The notes under the pieces are model-generated. The model did not search any database. It had not been told where the DNA came from and was given only the letters and a program-made list of their open reading frames with translations. A DNA stretch of 64,000 nucleotides, from IMG/VR virus record IMGVR_UViG_3300028837_000875, positions 24,572-88,571 of that record. One strand, written 5' to 3'. This document shows positions 2,674-54,824 of this stretch, one piece after another (the stretch's first letter is position 1; every line of letters starts with the position of its first letter). The translations under genes and the position numbers were made by a program. The DNA is from a virus.

Positions 2674-5600
2674 ATGGCGTTACTCAGCATAGGACTTGGC
2701 GTTATCACTGCTCCTTTTACTGCTGGCCTTGGATTAGCAGGCACCGCTGTCAAAGGATTTACGAGTATTCTTAGCGGTGCTTACGGTCTACTCAAAAGCT
2801 TCTGGATGAAAATCAAAAAGTGGGCGCTAATCGCAACAGCAGCACTTGCTGGTACAATTTATATGGCCGCCAAATTCCAGAAGCAAATGGCGTTTGTTGC
2901 TACAATGGTGAAGGACACAGACAAGTGGATGGGCAAATTTACTGAAAGCGTCAAACAAATGTCTGTTGCTTTCGGTCAATCTACGAACGGCATGACTCAA
3001 GCTCTCTATGATATTCTTTCTGCAAGCGTTCCTCCACAAAAAGCATTGAAGATGTTGGAGACAGCGGCAAAGGCCGCTGTTGCTGGTTTTACTGATGTAG
3101 AGCAAGTAGGAAAAACTCTAACTTCAGTGATGAATGGAATGGGTATTTCTTTCGAGCAGTCTGGAAAAGTTGCAGACGTGATGTTCAGAATTGTAGAGAA
3201 AGGACAATTAACATTTAATCAACTTCAAGGAAACATGGCTCGTGCCATGGTTGCTGCTCGTGCTGCACGAGTTCCATTTGAACAGCTTGCTGCTTCTTAT
3301 GCCTTCTTGACTCGTAAAGGTTTTAGTGTTGCAATGGCTGAGACAGCTATTGCAAGAGCACTTACATCTACGCTTACTCCAAGAAAAGAAGCGAGAAAAG
3401 CGGCTGAAAAATACGGAGTTGAACTTGGTGAAACTGCGCTTGCTACAAAAGGTTTGTTAGGAGTTATAAAGGATTTAGCAAAAGCAGGATTGACTGAAGC
3501 TCAACTTCAAGAATTGTTCCCAGCAATCAGGGCACGTAATGCTATCAGTGCAATGATAAAAGATGTAAAGGGATTTGAAGGCGACGTCATTGCTATGTAT
3601 CAGGCAGGAGGAGCACAGGGCAGGGCTTTCGCAAAAGCAACAGAAACGCTTGCGTTCCAATTTTCTAAATTCATTCAAGGCATGAAAGTATTCTTGATTG
3701 ACTTAGTCACTCCAATGTTGCCAGCTCTGCAAAAGCTATTCAAGCGACTTTCAATGATTGCAGAATACTTAAGGACAACTTTTGCGGTAGATATTGCTGG
3801 AGATATGGCCGCGCTTGCAGACAACATTGTTAAGAAAATAGAGAGTGTAATTTTTTGGATTATGCAAGAAGTTCCTTATATCTTCCAGAAGATTTGGGGC
3901 TATCTTAAGTTTACTATGAAAATCATTTCTACTGTTCTTGATGTTGGAATTCTCAAGACACTGGTTGGAGCTTATTGGACTTATCTTACAAATTTCTTTG
4001 AGAATATAATCAGAGTTGTAACTGGATTAGCTCGGGCAGTTGGCGAAAGACTTTATCAAATAGCTCGTAAAACCTGGTGGGAAATAAAAAGTTTTATTAC
4101 TGGTGAAGCGATTCCGGATTACATAAATGAATTTACTGGTATGCTTGATTACATAGAACTCCAATTGACTAACAGGATGCCAGATGCATTCAAAGAAGGA
4201 TGGCAAAAGGCAAGTAAATGGTATGAGGATTATACAAAAGGAATTGATGCTAAATATGAAGCACGAGCTAAAAAGCTTGCGGCGTTACGAGATAAGATGA
4301 ATCAAGAAGAACTCAAAGGCGCACAAGACAATGCTGAATCTGCAAGCAAGATAGACCATGCTTTTGAAAACGAGAAAATGAATGTAGCAAAAAAAGCTAT
4401 TAAGGAAATAATAGAGGAAGAGGAAAAGAAGATAGCACATCTTAAAGCTCTCGGTCAGCTTTCTTTGGATGAGGAAATCAAACGCTATAAGAAACTTCTT
4501 TCTATTGCAAAAGCTGATACAGAAGAAAGAATGAAGCTTGAACAGAAAGTATATGAGCTTGAGAAATCATTACGAGAAAGAAGGAAGAGCGAGGCTTTTG
4601 AGCACTTTGGTTATATGGAAAAAACTGAACGTGAAGTAACTCAAGCTAAGGTAGGTTATCTTGAAAAGTTTCTCAAGGAAGAAAAAGGAAGTTATCAAGA
4701 AAGACGAGCGGCTGCAATAGAACTATTCAAGCTACGTCAAGAGTTGCGCAAGATGGATATGGAAGAACAAAAGAAACTCAATGAATTTTATATGGATGAA
4801 GATTGGAAGCGACTCAAAGCTCAAGAAGAGATACTTAAGAAACGCAAGTTCATGTTTGCTCGTGATAAATTTGCACATCAGAAAATAGATGCAGCATTGC
4901 AAAAAAATCTAAGAAGGCAAGCTGAACAAAGAGCAGAGTTTATCCGCAAGCTTACAGTTAAGCAGACAAAGACTTGGGACCTTGAAGGACTTAGAAGGCT
5001 CAAGATTGCAGAGCGTCACGCAGAGGAAGCAGTAAAGAAGGACAAGCTCTCGGCAAAAGAGAAGGCAGCTTATGAGAAAGAGCTTGAGAAAATACGAGAG
5101 CAGATAACACAAGCTCGTGGCGACGTGATGAAAAAAGAGGGAATGAAAACTGAGGACCTGTTAAAGAAAGAACAAGAGTGGCATAAGGCACTTGAAAAAG
5201 AAATAGCAAAAGCAACTGGCAAGAGAGTAGACGAAGTTGCAGATAAAGAAAAATCAACACAAGAAAAACGAGTCCAGCAGGCAGAAGAGACAAAGCAGAA
5301 AGTTGGAGAGATAGGAGACAAAGCAAAAGGAAAGATAAAAGAAATCTCAGAAGCTATGCAAGATTCTATGACAAGTGCAATCAAAGCAATACTTGAAGCA
5401 TTGAAAAAACTTGAACAACAATTGATAGCTATCTTCGATAGAATCAGACAGATATGTGCAGCGGCTCAATGTGGCGGTGCTTTGCCGGTACCAGGCTTCG
5501 GCAAGGCGGCCGCTGGCAGATTGCTCAATGGAAAGAGAGCAGGAGCAGGGACGGCTATTACTAAGCGAGACGTTAAAGTGGGACCAATATACATTGGCAA

Positions 5601-48829: not shown

Positions 48830-49373
48830 AGCAACTTGGGATAATCTATATCACATGTGGAAAGACTGCAAGAGATGTGACTTGCATGAAAACCGCAGTC
48901 GAGTTGTCTTTGGCAAAGGTCCAAAGAAAGCGAAAATCTTTTTGATTGGTCAGGCTCCTGGAAAGACTGAAGATAAACTTGGAAAACCATTTGTAGGTTT
49001 GATGGGTAAACTGCTTAGAGAAATGATGGAAGCAATAGGAATGAGTCCTGATAGAATGTACATTTCTAATTCTGCGGCTTGTTATCCTCTTGCGGATGCA
49101 ATGCCCACAGTTCATCAAGTAAAAATGTGCTATCCAAGATTGAAGATGGAAATTGAGTTAGTAAAACCAAAATTCATTATCTATTGCGGAATGAGAGCCG
49201 CTACAATTTCTGGCTTGTGTGAAGAGTACGCAAGATTCTTTGAACAGTTCAAGACTTTATTTATGAATCATCCGGGTTCTATCAGAAGGGACTCGGGAAG
49301 AAAAGAAGATATAAGAAAGCAACTTCAATTTATTAAGGATGCTATCATAAGAGATGGAGGGAAAGTAGCGTGA
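48813..49373 (+). CDS. Uracil-DNA glycosylase family 4-like protein, copy 2
   Basis: A 186-residue protein. Cys pattern C-x2-C (DCKRCDLH) and C…C (SAACYPLADA…KMCYPRL) fits the 4Fe-4S cluster of family 4. Motif 1 is IGQAPGKTEDKLGKPFVG and the C-terminal HPGS replaces HPS/HPA. Closer to the canonical family than the 35868 copy. ATG 48813 follows GAAGGATAAAG. Confidence 0.85.
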   Translation: MPRIIKATWDNLYHMWKDCKRCDLHENRSRVVFGKGPKKAKIFLIGQAPGKTEDKLGKPFVGLMGKLLREMMEAIGMSPDRMYISNSAACYPLADAMPTVHQVKMCYPRLKMEIELVKPKFIIYCGMRAATISGLCEEYARFFEQFKTLFMNHPGSIRRDSGRKEDIRKQLQFIKDAIIRDGGKVA

Positions 49374-52300
49374 TAAAATTTCCGAAGCTTGGCTACAAGA
49401 TTACAGAGAATGCCTTGGCAGTTCTGAAAGAACGTTATCTTTTTAGAAATCCAGAAGGAGAGATAATCGAGAATCCATCAGAAATGTTTTGGCGCGTAGC
49501 TAAGTATGTTGCTTCAGTTGAAAAGACAAAAGCAAAAAGAATTAAATGGACTGAGATATTCTATGATTTGATGGCATCGGGTGATTTCATGCCGAACACA
49601 CCGACGTTGTTAAATTCAGGCAGAGAAAATCTTTCAGTCCTTGCTGGTTGCTTCGTCATAGAGGTCAACGATACTATTTACGGAGGACTTGATTCTATTT
49701 TTGGTTCAATAGAACTCATGGCATTGATTCATAAGATGGGTGGAGGAACTGGTTGCTCATTTCATAAGCTTCGCCCACATGGAGCACGCGTTACTTCTAC
49801 TGGTCATGTTGCTTCAGGACCGGTGTCCTTCATGCGCAACTTTGATGAAGCGATTGAAGCAATTCAGCAAGGTGGCATGAGACGTGGAGCACACATGTCA
49901 ATAATGAAAGTAGACCATCCAGACATCGAAGAATTTATTGAATGCAAGAATAAGTTGAATCAAAGAACAAAAGTTGTTCTTGATAGAATAACGAAAGCCT
50001 TGCATCTTGATTTGGATGGAGAGTTCAGAACAATAATCAAAGAAGCTATCATTCGTTCACAACTGACAAACATGAACATTTCAATATCATTGACTGCTGA
50101 ATTTAAACAAGCTTTGAAGAAAGGAACTTCATACGATATAGTAAGTCCTCAGACTGGCAAAGTAGTCAGACAAGAAAATGCAGGACGCATTTTTAATCTC
50201 ATGGCTCAGAATGCTTGGAAGTCAGGAGAGCCTGGCTTTATTGATTTAGAAAGAATCAATGCAGATAATACTTGTCCGCATCTTGGGGAAATATATTCAA
50301 CCAATCCTTGTGTAGTTGGAGATACTCCAGTTTCAACAGTAAATGAAGGACCTCAAATCTTTGAGGATTTAGTTGGTAGAGAAGTTTTGGTTTATGCTTA
50401 TGATAATAAGAGTAGTGAAATCAAAGTAAGTATGATGCGCAACATACGAAGAACTGGTAAAAACATTCCTATTATGAAATTGGTAATTGATAAAGGAACT
50501 GCTAATGGTATTTTGAGTCAAGATTATAATGGACGTTTTGAAGAACACAAATTGACTCCTGAACACAAACTGTATTTAAGAAACGGTTTAGAAGTGATGA
50601 TAAAGAACTTAGTTCCAGGAGACAGATTGTTTCCGCATCAAATTAAAGCAAGCGGAAGAGCGAGAGTAGTTATAAGAAATGGATTAGGCAAATATAAATC
50701 TCGCTCTCATTATGTAGCAGAATATAAGTTTGGGAGAAAGCTTAGAAATGATGAAGTAGTTCATCACAAAGATGGCAATGGCAGTAATGATAATCCTGAA
50801 AATCTTGAAATTGAAACTGATAGTTATCACAAATCACATCATTGTAGAGACTCAAATTTAAGTGGCATACGAAGTTTGAAAGGCTCTAAGAATCCAAACT
50901 TTAATCATATCAAAAAAGAGACATTGATATATTATGGATGTCTCTGTGTTTCTAAGTATGGAACTGTCAGAAACGGAAGTGTTTGGAATGAGTTCAGAAA
51001 AGAAGTTAGAGAAATTGAGTTGCCAGGAAGAGGAACTATTGAAAGGCTATTTGGCAGTTATCGTGAGTTTCAAGAAGCATGTATCTTATCTTCTGTTTTG
51101 ATTGAAAATCACAAAGTTGTTTCAGTTGAATACTGTGGCAAAGCAGATGTATTTAATGGAACTGTAGATAAGTATCACAACTATTTCATTGCGGATAGAA
51201 AGGCGCGTTCTGGGAATTTAGTTACAGGAATACTCAGTAAAAATTGTGGTGAACAGCCGTTGAGACCATTTGAGTCTTGCACGCTTGGTTCAATTGCTGT
51301 TTCAAGAATGGTTGAAAAGAAAAATGGACAGCTCAAATTTGACTATGTCAAGTTCAAAGAAAGAATTTATCAGGCCATACGCTTTCTTGATAACGTTCTT
51401 GATGCACAAAAGTATCCAGTGTCTGAGATAAAAGAAGAATCACAACGTACTCGTAAGATAGGCCTTGGAGTTATGGGTTTTGCAGATTTGCTAATTAAGT
51501 TTGGCATTCCGTATGGCTCTCAAGATTGTATTGATTTGATTCATGTGATGATGTCTAAGTTTGAGATACAGACTCGTCGAGCTTCAATAGACCTTGCAAG
51601 AGAAAAAGGAAAGTTTCCAGCTTGGAAAAAATCGACTTATGGCAAACAAGGATTGCCGATGCGCAATGCAATGCGGACAACAATAGCGCCAACAGGTTCA
51701 ATCTCTGGGATAGCTGGAGTTTCGTTTGGCATTGAACCGCTTTATGGTTTATCTTTCACTCGTAGAATCTTGGACGGTAAAACATTTGTTGAAGTTTCAG
51801 AGGTTGCAAAAGAAGCATTGAAGCGCAAACATTGTTGGAGTGAAAGAGCAGAGCAAACGATTCGTGAAGATGGTACACTAAATAATTGTGAATGGATTCC
51901 TCCTGATATTAGAATGGCATTCAAGACAGCACACGAGATAAATCCCGAAGAGCACTTAATAGTTCAAGCAGCGTTTCAGAAATATATTGATAATGCTGTT
52001 TCCAAAACAATCAATCTTCCAAACTCTGCTACTGTTGAGGATGTCAACAATATATTCAGGAGAGCAATTGAATTGAAGTGCAAAGGCATCACTGTATATC
52101 GTGATGCTTCAAGAGAAGAACAAGTTCTAACTACAGGAAAAGCAAAGTTTCAATCAATTAGAGAAGTTAGAAAGAGACCAAGAAAGCTTAATGGAACAAC
52201 CTACGAAAAGCAAGTTGGAGAATGCGGCAAGCTTTTTGTAATAGTCAATTCAGATAAAGATGGTTATCCATTTGAGATTTTCATTGAGGCTGGAAAATCG

Positions 52301-52630
52301 GGTGGCTGTATGCAGTCTCAACTTCAAGCTATTGGAAGATTGATTTCAAAATCTTGGCAGAGCGGTTTGGGATTAGAAACAATAGTCAAGCAGTTGACAG
52401 GAATTACTTGTCATCAGTCTAAGCCTTCGTTTGATAAAAAACAATCGTTTCTATCTTGTGCGGATGCAATTGCAAAAATTATTCAAGAACATTTTATTGG
52501 AGAGGAAGGAGAGGAAGAGCAGTTTGATGAAAAGCCAAAGAGTAATATCTGCTCGTATTGCGGAGGGCCGATGATACATGAAGGACATTGTTCTACATGC
52601 ACGGCTTGTTTCAAAAGTTTATGTGGATAG
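49370..52630 (+). CDS. nrdJ: Class II (B12-dependent) ribonucleotide reductase precursor with intein
   Basis: A 1086-residue precursor. Exteins of 313 and 461 residues make a 774-residue reductase of the adenosylcobalamin type: N-terminal YKITENALAVLKERYLF, 'FMPNTPTLLNSG', 'LAGCFVIEV' (redox Cys), NP-CGEQPL (radical Cys), 'APTGSISGIAGVSFGIEPLY', and a C-terminal zinc/redox tail CSYCGGPM…CSTCTACFKSLC. It reduces ribonucleotides without a separate radical subunit, so the phage needs host cobalamin. The intein (residues 314-625) sits exactly before the radical Cys. Ribosome site is GATGGAGGGAAAGTAGC. Confidence 0.92.
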   Translation: MIKFPKLGYKITENALAVLKERYLFRNPEGEIIENPSEMFWRVAKYVASVEKTKAKRIKWTEIFYDLMASGDFMPNTPTLLNSGRENLSVLAGCFVIEVNDTIYGGLDSIFGSIELMALIHKMGGGTGCSFHKLRPHGARVTSTGHVASGPVSFMRNFDEAIEAIQQGGMRRGAHMSIMKVDHPDIEEFIECKNKLNQRTKVVLDRITKALHLDLDGEFRTIIKEAIIRSQLTNMNISISLTAEFKQALKKGTSYDIVSPQTGKVVRQENAGRIFNLMAQNAWKSGEPGFIDLERINADNTCPHLGEIYSTNPCVVGDTPVSTVNEGPQIFEDLVGREVLVYAYDNKSSEIKVSMMRNIRRTGKNIPIMKLVIDKGTANGILSQDYNGRFEEHKLTPEHKLYLRNGLEVMIKNLVPGDRLFPHQIKASGRARVVIRNGLGKYKSRSHYVAEYKFGRKLRNDEVVHHKDGNGSNDNPENLEIETDSYHKSHHCRDSNLSGIRSLKGSKNPNFNHIKKETLIYYGCLCVSKYGTVRNGSVWNEFRKEVREIELPGRGTIERLFGSYREFQEACILSSVLIENHKVVSVEYCGKADVFNGTVDKYHNYFIADRKARSGNLVTGILSKNCGEQPLRPFESCTLGSIAVSRMVEKKNGQLKFDYVKFKERIYQAIRFLDNVLDAQKYPVSEIKEESQRTRKIGLGVMGFADLLIKFGIPYGSQDCIDLIHVMMSKFEIQTRRASIDLAREKGKFPAWKKSTYGKQGLPMRNAMRTTIAPTGSISGIAGVSFGIEPLYGLSFTRRILDGKTFVEVSEVAKEALKRKHCWSERAEQTIREDGTLNNCEWIPPDIRMAFKTAHEINPEEHLIVQAAFQKYIDNAVSKTINLPNSATVEDVNNIFRRAIELKCKGITVYRDASREEQVLTTGKAKFQSIREVRKRPRKLNGTTYEKQVGECGKLFVIVNSDKDGYPFEIFIEAGKSGGCMQSQLQAIGRLISKSWQSGLGLETIVKQLTGITCHQSKPSFDKKQSFLSCADAIAKIIQEHFIGEEGEEEQFDEKPKSNICSYCGGPMIHEGHCSTCTACFKSLCG
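50309..51244 (+). mobile_element. Intein with HNH homing endonuclease in the reductase gene
   Basis: A 312-residue in-frame insertion between …STNP and CGEQPL. It begins CVVGDTPV (Cys1), has the block B TxxH as LTPEHKL, an HNH-type core (VVHHKDGNGSNDNPENLE, about residues 148-165 of the intein) and block F VDKYHNYFIAD, and ends …GILSKN before Cys+1. The penultimate residue is Lys, not the usual His. The insertion point is the reductase catalytic cysteine, a known intein hot spot. Splicing should restore active enzyme. Confidence 0.9.
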
Positions 52631-53115: not shown

Positions 53116-53522
53116 TTGAAAAAATTTCTGAAGGCTCTGATTTAAATGATGCTATGCTTATTGCTTTGAAAAGATGTAATGAGAAAATTAAGATATGGAT
53201 TGAAAGCTTGCCAGAAAGAGTTTTTTGTTTGTTATGTGGATTGCGTATAGAAAAGAGTGAGCTTCTTTTTTATACAGAGGATACTCCACAATTTAATTAT
53301 GATGAAGATAGCGGCACGCTCAAAGCCAATCGTTATGTTTTTGGAATGTGTTCTAAATGTGCAGAAGAATTAAACAATGAAGAGGATGCACTTGATAACT
53401 GGGACAATAAATTTATTCTTCCATGGCAAGAAGAATTGATTAAGGATGGAAACTGGGATATGTCAAATTTGCATACTCGCGGTGAAGCAAAGAGGTTTAT
53501 TGTAGATTGGTTAAAGAATTAG
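53088..53522 (+). CDS. Zinc-binding unknown protein
   Basis: A 144-residue acidic protein. CLLCGLRI and CSKCAEEL (about residues 47 and 88) make a four-cysteine zinc site with a long loop between. Starts inside the previous gene (ATATGGG). Family not recognised. Confidence 0.5.
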   Translation: MGIHEQDSLIEKISEGSDLNDAMLIALKRCNEKIKIWIESLPERVFCLLCGLRIEKSELLFYTEDTPQFNYDEDSGTLKANRYVFGMCSKCAEELNNEEDALDNWDNKFILPWQEELIKDGNWDMSNLHTRGEAKRFIVDWLKN

Positions 53523-53953
53523 AAGTCGAAGATATATTTTCTTCGGATGCTCTTGAAACATTAGAACTATTGTCGCTCAAGTGCAAAGTATCTGAAGAGC
53601 ACTGCATCACATTGTTGGAAGTTGTGAAAAAGAAAACTGAAATAGAAGGAGAAAAGAAGATGAAGAAAGGCAAGACGAGAGGCAAAGATAAAAAAGTAAA
53701 GAAGGGCGGACCGCTTTCACGAATCTATTATGAATTATCAGATGAATTACAAGCAGTAGTAGGAAAGAAGAAAGCAAATCGTCCTGAGATTATGAAGGGT
53801 CTTTGGAAGTATATCAAAGCTGAAAATCTTCAGGACCCGGATGATAAGAGAACAATTGTATTTGATGAAAAATTTGCTGCTGTCTTTGGAGGAAAGAAGT
53901 GCGATATGTTCTTTTTAGCTAAGGGCATATCAAAGCACTTAAAAAGAATCTAA
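53507..53953 (+). CDS. SWIB/MDM2-domain protein
   Basis: A 148-residue protein. The C-terminal 85 residues (PLSRIYYELSDELQAVVG, RPEIMKGLWKYIKAENLQ, DEKFAAVFGGKKCDMFFLAKG) match the SWIB fold known from chromatin proteins and a few bacteria and phages. A K-rich linker separates it from an acidic N-terminal region. TTG 53507 is weak; ATG 53660 after GAAGGAGAAAAG could make a domain-only form. Function in phages unknown; DNA or topoisomerase contact is plausible. Confidence 0.65.
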   Translation: MVKELEVEDIFSSDALETLELLSLKCKVSEEHCITLLEVVKKKTEIEGEKKMKKGKTRGKDKKVKKGGPLSRIYYELSDELQAVVGKKKANRPEIMKGLWKYIKAENLQDPDDKRTIVFDEKFAAVFGGKKCDMFFLAKGISKHLKRI

Positions 53954-54033: not shown

Positions 54034-54717
54034 ATGGCTGGAAAGAATGGCAAGAGTGGACGCAGGTTTCAGTCTCACAAAATGCGGGACGTCATGCCAT
54101 CAGGTTTAGTTGCAAGCAAGGTGACTTGTTGTCATTGCGGAGCAAAAGCGGAGAGAAAGGATTCGCTCTGTGACCACAGGTTAAAAGATTCTGATGGCAG
54201 ATATTGTCGGTTCTGTTCTAACTGCACGGAGGTATTTAAAGCTGCTGTCAATGCAGTAGATGACCCAACTGGACTTGTGTTCGATGAAGGAGTTGAAGTT
54301 GACCTCGGAGATAAGGACCCGTTCTTCAGGATACGTTTTTTCTCTGAGCATGGAGAGATGCCTTCATGGAGAGTAGTTCCTCCTGAAGATGAAACAGGTG
54401 GACTGCTTGTCTTTGTGCGCAGGGTAGGTTCGTTCGTAGCAGTTAAAGAGGTTGGCGGACCAAAGCATCTCACGTGCAAGGTTGTCATCACAAAGAAGTC
54501 AACTCGCGTTGCTTTTGCAGAGCCTTATATTCCAAAGCCGTCAGCAAAAGTAATAATAGTAGAAGCAAGTGAGGAAGTTGAAGAACTTAAGAGTGAGCAA
54601 GATAAACTTGATGAAGCTCACGAGGAAGTTGATAAAGCAGAAGTTGAAAGTGATAAGGAAGAGATAGAGGAAAAAGAAAAAGAAGAGGAACTCGAAATCG
54701 AAAAAGAAGAGGAGTAG
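54034..54717 (+). CDS. Zinc-binding protein with acidic C-terminus
   Basis: A 227-residue protein; ATG 54034 follows TGAGAGGAGGTCTGGGG, better than an upstream TTG at 53992. Zinc site C-x2-C…C-x2-C (CCHCGAKA…FCSNC) at about 31-62; the last 50 residues are nearly all E, K and D. Function unknown. A perfect 8-bp inverted repeat, TAAGAACA-AGTA-TGTTCTTA (53952-53971), lies upstream. Confidence 0.55.
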   Translation: MAGKNGKSGRRFQSHKMRDVMPSGLVASKVTCCHCGAKAERKDSLCDHRLKDSDGRYCRFCSNCTEVFKAAVNAVDDPTGLVFDEGVEVDLGDKDPFFRIRFFSEHGEMPSWRVVPPEDETGGLLVFVRRVGSFVAVKEVGGPKHLTCKVVITKKSTRVAFAEPYIPKPSAKVIIVEASEEVEELKSEQDKLDEAHEEVDKAEVESDKEEIEEKEKEEELEIEKEEE

Positions 54718-54719
54718 AT

Positions 54720-54824
54720 ATGGCCCTTAAGGGTTCAGGTAAAGGCCTGTCTCTTATACACATCTCCGAGCCCACGAGACGCTACGCTATCTCGTATGCC
54801 GTCTTCGAAAAGACGAAGCAATAA
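54720..54824 (+). pseudogene. Small Gly/Lys gene disrupted by sequencing adapter
   Basis: ATG 54720 opens MALKGSGKG, similar in style to the start of the 55745 gene, then the frame continues through 60 bases of Nextera adapter (giving the known artefact peptide SLIHISEPTR) and ends EKTKQ. The adapter is in frame by chance. The native middle is either absent (a 14-residue product) or lost in assembly. Treat as unreliable. Confidence 0.6.
54747..54806 (+). other. Illumina Nextera adapter contamination
   Basis: Bases 54747-54780 equal the Nextera transposase read-2 end (CTGTCTCTTATACACATC… …CCCACGAGAC). 54781-54788 are an 8-base i7 index (GCTACGCT). 54789-54806 are the start of the P7 side (ATCTCGTATGCCGTCTTC). 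This is synthetic sequence left in the assembly. On the minus strand it encodes the familiar artefact MGSEMCIRDR. Confidence 0.98.

Follow-up and report, generated by a model that had tools for sequence, protein, structure and literature searches.

The window analyzed here comprises 64,000 bases, corresponding to bases 24572–88571 of the complete 88,571-base record IMGVR_UViG_3300028837_000875. In a sequence-only reading, 60 bases of the window (54747–54806) had been described as a transposase end, an 8-base i7 index and a P7 flank, in that order, and this raises the question whether these bases are viral DNA at all and, if they are not, what can still be said about the genes on both sides of them.

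A Nextera Adapter Within the Viral Contig

The alignment of 54747–54806 revealed that this stretch matches, at every one of its 60 bases, a Nextera i7 library oligo in reverse complement. All of the fixed bases (52/52) agree with the oligo, the index reads GCTACGCT, and the parts follow each other in the order CTGTCTCTTATACACATCT - CCGAGCCCACGAGAC - GCTACGCT - ATCTCGTATGCCGTCTTC (Table 1). A published primer table lists the oligo Ad2.9_GCTACGCT as CAAGCAGAAGACGGCATACGAGAT-AGCGTAGC-GTCTCGTGGGCTCGG-AGATGT, whereby GCTACGCT is a standard 8-base Nextera i7 index, Ad2.9 (PMC7814285). Alignment and primer table agree with the order of parts that had been proposed. For the mosaic end, 0.03 chance matches with up to three mismatches would be expected in the window, where one match was found, which is exact. 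Across all 88,571 bases of the record there is one mosaic end, and this adapter is the only one detected; a search for the i5-side adapter yielded none. In the P7 part, 18 of 24 bases are followed by GAAAAG where the oligo has TGCTTG. The final approximately six P7 bases may be common to the adapter and the viral right flank. Since the viral DNA may itself start with GTCTTC or a longer piece, the right boundary of the adapter is uncertain by a few bases. Overall, we put the probability at about 98% that the 60 bases are an untrimmed Nextera i7-side adapter, which was carried into the metagenomic assembly and is not viral DNA.

Table 1. Parts of the adapter and reading frames overlapping it (window positions).
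Feature	Position	Strand	Basis
Nextera 19-base mosaic end (AGATGTGTATAAGAGACAG on the - strand)	54747–54765	-	Exact match; sole copy in window and record
Nextera read-2/i7-side adapter (GTCTCGTGGGCTCGG on the - strand)	54766–54780	-	Exact match; oligo printed in PMC7814285
8-base i7 sample index GCTACGCT	54781–54788	+	Identical to Ad2.9_GCTACGCT in PMC7814285; recurs beside the adapter in IMG/VR
First 18 of 24 bases of the P7 reverse complement	54789–54806	-	Oligo alignment; adapter left 6 bases before its end
Spurious 34-aa ORF MALKGSGKG-LSLIHISEPTRRYAISYAVF-EKTKQ* (MALKGSGKGLSLIHISEPTRRYAISYAVFEKTKQ)	54720–54824	+	Translation; unsafe gene call
Spurious reverse ORF starting MGSEMCIRDR	54587–54775	-	ORF list; start codon within the adapter

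We consider it close to inconceivable that the 60 bases are instead an intact sequence of the virus, or the end of a biological transposon with a resemblance to the adapter. It would be in line with such an origin that a reading frame is open across all 60 bases, but this only reflects the absence of stop codons from the adapter in this frame. A viral or transposon origin is already refuted by the presence of a synthetic index and of flow-cell bases (P7), and we know of no natural element that carries index and flow-cell bases. Furthermore, a Tn5-type insertion would need two inverted ends, whereas the record has a single one, and the 9-base target duplication is missing (GGTAAAGGC on the left, GAAAAGACG on the right); thus, the site does not result from real transposition. 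In addition, the adapter core is present at unrelated sites in unrelated contigs and in cultured phages.

Reading Frames Across the Adapter

The forward ORF comprises 35 codons, 20 of which are adapter, and matched nothing in PHROG or Pfam. The peptides SLIHISEPTR (+) and MGSEMCIRDR (-), which had been named as artefacts, are both real in the translation and the ORF list, respectively; a literature search found no paper naming them. The adapter had also been placed inside a small gene. It does overlap the forward ORF, but the relation has to be reversed, as the ORF as called exists only through its 20 adapter codons. The warning that proteins predicted across the site are unsafe is justified. 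Of the 34 amino acids of the forward ORF, 20 are adapter, and the reverse ORF starts within it. Both ORFs are artefacts and should be dropped. This is a matter of data quality, and the fault is an ordinary one, yet it creates a fake small gene.

The Same Adapter in Other Sequences

A scan of IMG/VR with a 34-base adapter core, the count of which is a lower bound, identified the core in at least 120 stretches. In 121 of 124 core occurrences within the fetched loci, the contig sequence stops no more than 60 bases past the adapter, as read-through would predict. The 8-mers following the core in these loci form a small recurring set, with CGTACTAG, GTAGAGGA, GCTACGCT, GGACTCCT, and TAGGCATG making up the majority; several of them are printed as indexes in PMC7814285, and those that were checked are listed Nextera indexes. 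The index GCTACGCT together with P7 was found in 19 IMG/VR stretches, of which metagenome 3300028837 contributed 12, 3300008516 six, and 3300014932 one. Beyond IMG/VR, the adapter sequence matches 45 GenBank phage records and 9 plasmids, whereas the E. coli genomes in RefSeq (20,395 records, 28 Gb) gave no match. The adapter is thus widespread in the virus collection and, in deposited phage genomes (one RefSeq record among them), is also part of gene calls, where it breaks or lengthens genes. A simple screen would find such remnants.

Contigs with terminal read-through and the index GCTACGCT (e.g., L010, L071, L116, and L129) share with the window the 60 bases, the index and the orientation to the contig body. 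However, their adapter is located at the contig end and continues into TGCTTG and poly-A, whereas the copy in the window is internal and ends within P7. A P7 part that is cut short at the contig end occurs in other IMG/VR records, too.

Internal Adapters Elsewhere

Within the first locus set, internal or near-internal copies were restricted to L059, L114 (149 bases from an end) and the window's own locus, L121. The copy in L059 (IMGVR_UViG_2767802081_000001, 4953–4986) ends after 34 bases, carries no index or P7 part, and is directly followed by coding-like sequence. A further case, L137 (IMGVR_UViG_3300028837_001215), resembles the window in that an internal adapter with the index GCTACGCT lies between neighboring genes, but here P7 is complete and 13 A follow before the right flank restarts. 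The adapter and the 13 A separate a Peptidase_S78 prohead protease gene from a Phage_capsid gene. Since a prohead protease gene followed by a capsid gene is the usual order in tailed phages, the flanks of this adapter are very probably true neighbors.

Five GenBank phages (vB_EcoM_G4507, G10400, G4500, Pseudomonas phage SaPL, and Paenibacillus phage Pd_22F) likewise have an adapter within a finished-looking genome, which in several of them gives rise to gene calls or disrupts them. They differ from the window by other indexes and by a P7 part that continues into poly-A, or poly-G in Pd_22F. In comparison with a close relative, the sequences flanking the adapter overlap by about 55 bases in G4500, 264 in SaPL, 55 in G10400, and 63 in G4507; in these four genomes, the assembly duplicated native sequence around the adapter. 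Such an overlap (55–264 bases) is missing in the window. The best-resolved internal adapters elsewhere sit between true neighbors.

The effect on gene calls can be seen in Escherichia phage vB_EcoM_G4507 (L124, MK327946.1, 75200–78259), where the adapter lies in a baseplate hub/lysozyme gene that is annotated as two CDS, whereas the gene is one intact CDS in the near-identical G10400. The RefSeq copy of G4507, NC_054919.1, holds the adapter as well. The CDS across the adapter measures 924 nt in SaPL compared to 525 nt in phage oldone, and 2226 nt in G4500 compared to 2049 nt in G29. Further deposited phage records with internal Nextera adapters are MH973725.1 (L125), MK327937.1 (L126), MK327945.1 (L127), and MZ092003.1 (L128).

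Origin of the Join and Relation of the Flanks

The site in the window is internal, at a distance of 9.2 kb from the contig end, and is devoid of the usual TGCTTG and poly-A tail. The longest string common to the 400 bases on either side has 11 bases, and the longest one common to the whole right and left parts has 17. The order and orientation of the adapter parts suggest that viral position 54746 was the last one of a library fragment, whose read crossed the insert rightwards and continued into the mosaic end, the index and P7. Where coverage was thin, the assembler may then have extended the left contig into the adapter, and a gap-closing or short-overlap step may have connected the extended end with the viral sequence on the right, probably via a few bases shared with ...GTCTTC. 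A join through this short overlap would explain why the adapter stops inside P7. As the site is internal and shows neither TGCTTG with poly-A nor an overlap of the flanks, the exact joining step is one that we infer. A fold-back via a hairpin across the junction of P7 and flank (CGTCTT-CGAA-AAGACG, -7.4 kcal/mol for 51 bases, z -1.97) was considered as well and rejected as weak and post hoc.

Most likely, both flanks stem from one virus, in which they lie close together. It had been suggested that the adapter may mark a misjoin, and the right 9.2 kb could indeed stem from another virus in the sample, as sequences joined through an adapter need not be neighbors, an overlap of the flanks like the one that demonstrates adjacency in the GenBank phages is missing, and the join lies only 9.2 kb from the end of the record. 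In that case, the genes of these last 9.2 kb would be foreign to this virus. We regard such a chimera as unlikely. The tetranucleotide distance of the right 9.2 kb to the left part is 0.098. For comparison, eight blocks of equal size taken from the left part show distances of 0.061–0.097 to the remainder, and for 43 viral stretches from elsewhere the distance is at least 0.233. With its value, the right part borders on the range within the contig and is well apart from other viruses, although a virus that is related to this one and shares its host could have a similar composition. The GC content is 0.411 on the right compared to 0.399 on the left, and gene strand and tight spacing are unchanged across the site. 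In a distant relative (L122), homologues of a left-side RecA-like gene and a right-side DHH gene are located 5 kb apart, which lends weak support to adjacency because both families are common. Judging from composition, GC content and gene strand, one virus with a small local defect would fit better than a chimera. The exact bases at the join are not trustworthy and adjacency of the flanks is unproven; the site should be masked or split, and synteny across 54.75–54.81 kb is not usable without reads.

Relatives and Neighboring Genes

Viral contigs were searched with the ribonucleotide reductase, the DHH protein, a protein with a SWIB domain, and two proteins flanking the site, which gave no relative spanning the site and only distant relatives of the DHH protein. 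Neither the exact search with right-flank DNA nor the search of genome contigs with two proteins yielded a relative covering the site. For the flank DNA in phages, the matches listed were adapter matches only.

Two genes to the left of the site deserve mention. The protein encoded at 53507–53953 has a SWIB/MDM2 domain (Pfam PF02201, E 1.1e-26), and no viral relative of it was found in viral contigs; to our knowledge, this domain is unusual in phages. An intein that harbors an HNH endonuclease domain (residues about 313–624) splits the ribonucleotide reductase encoded at 49370–52630.
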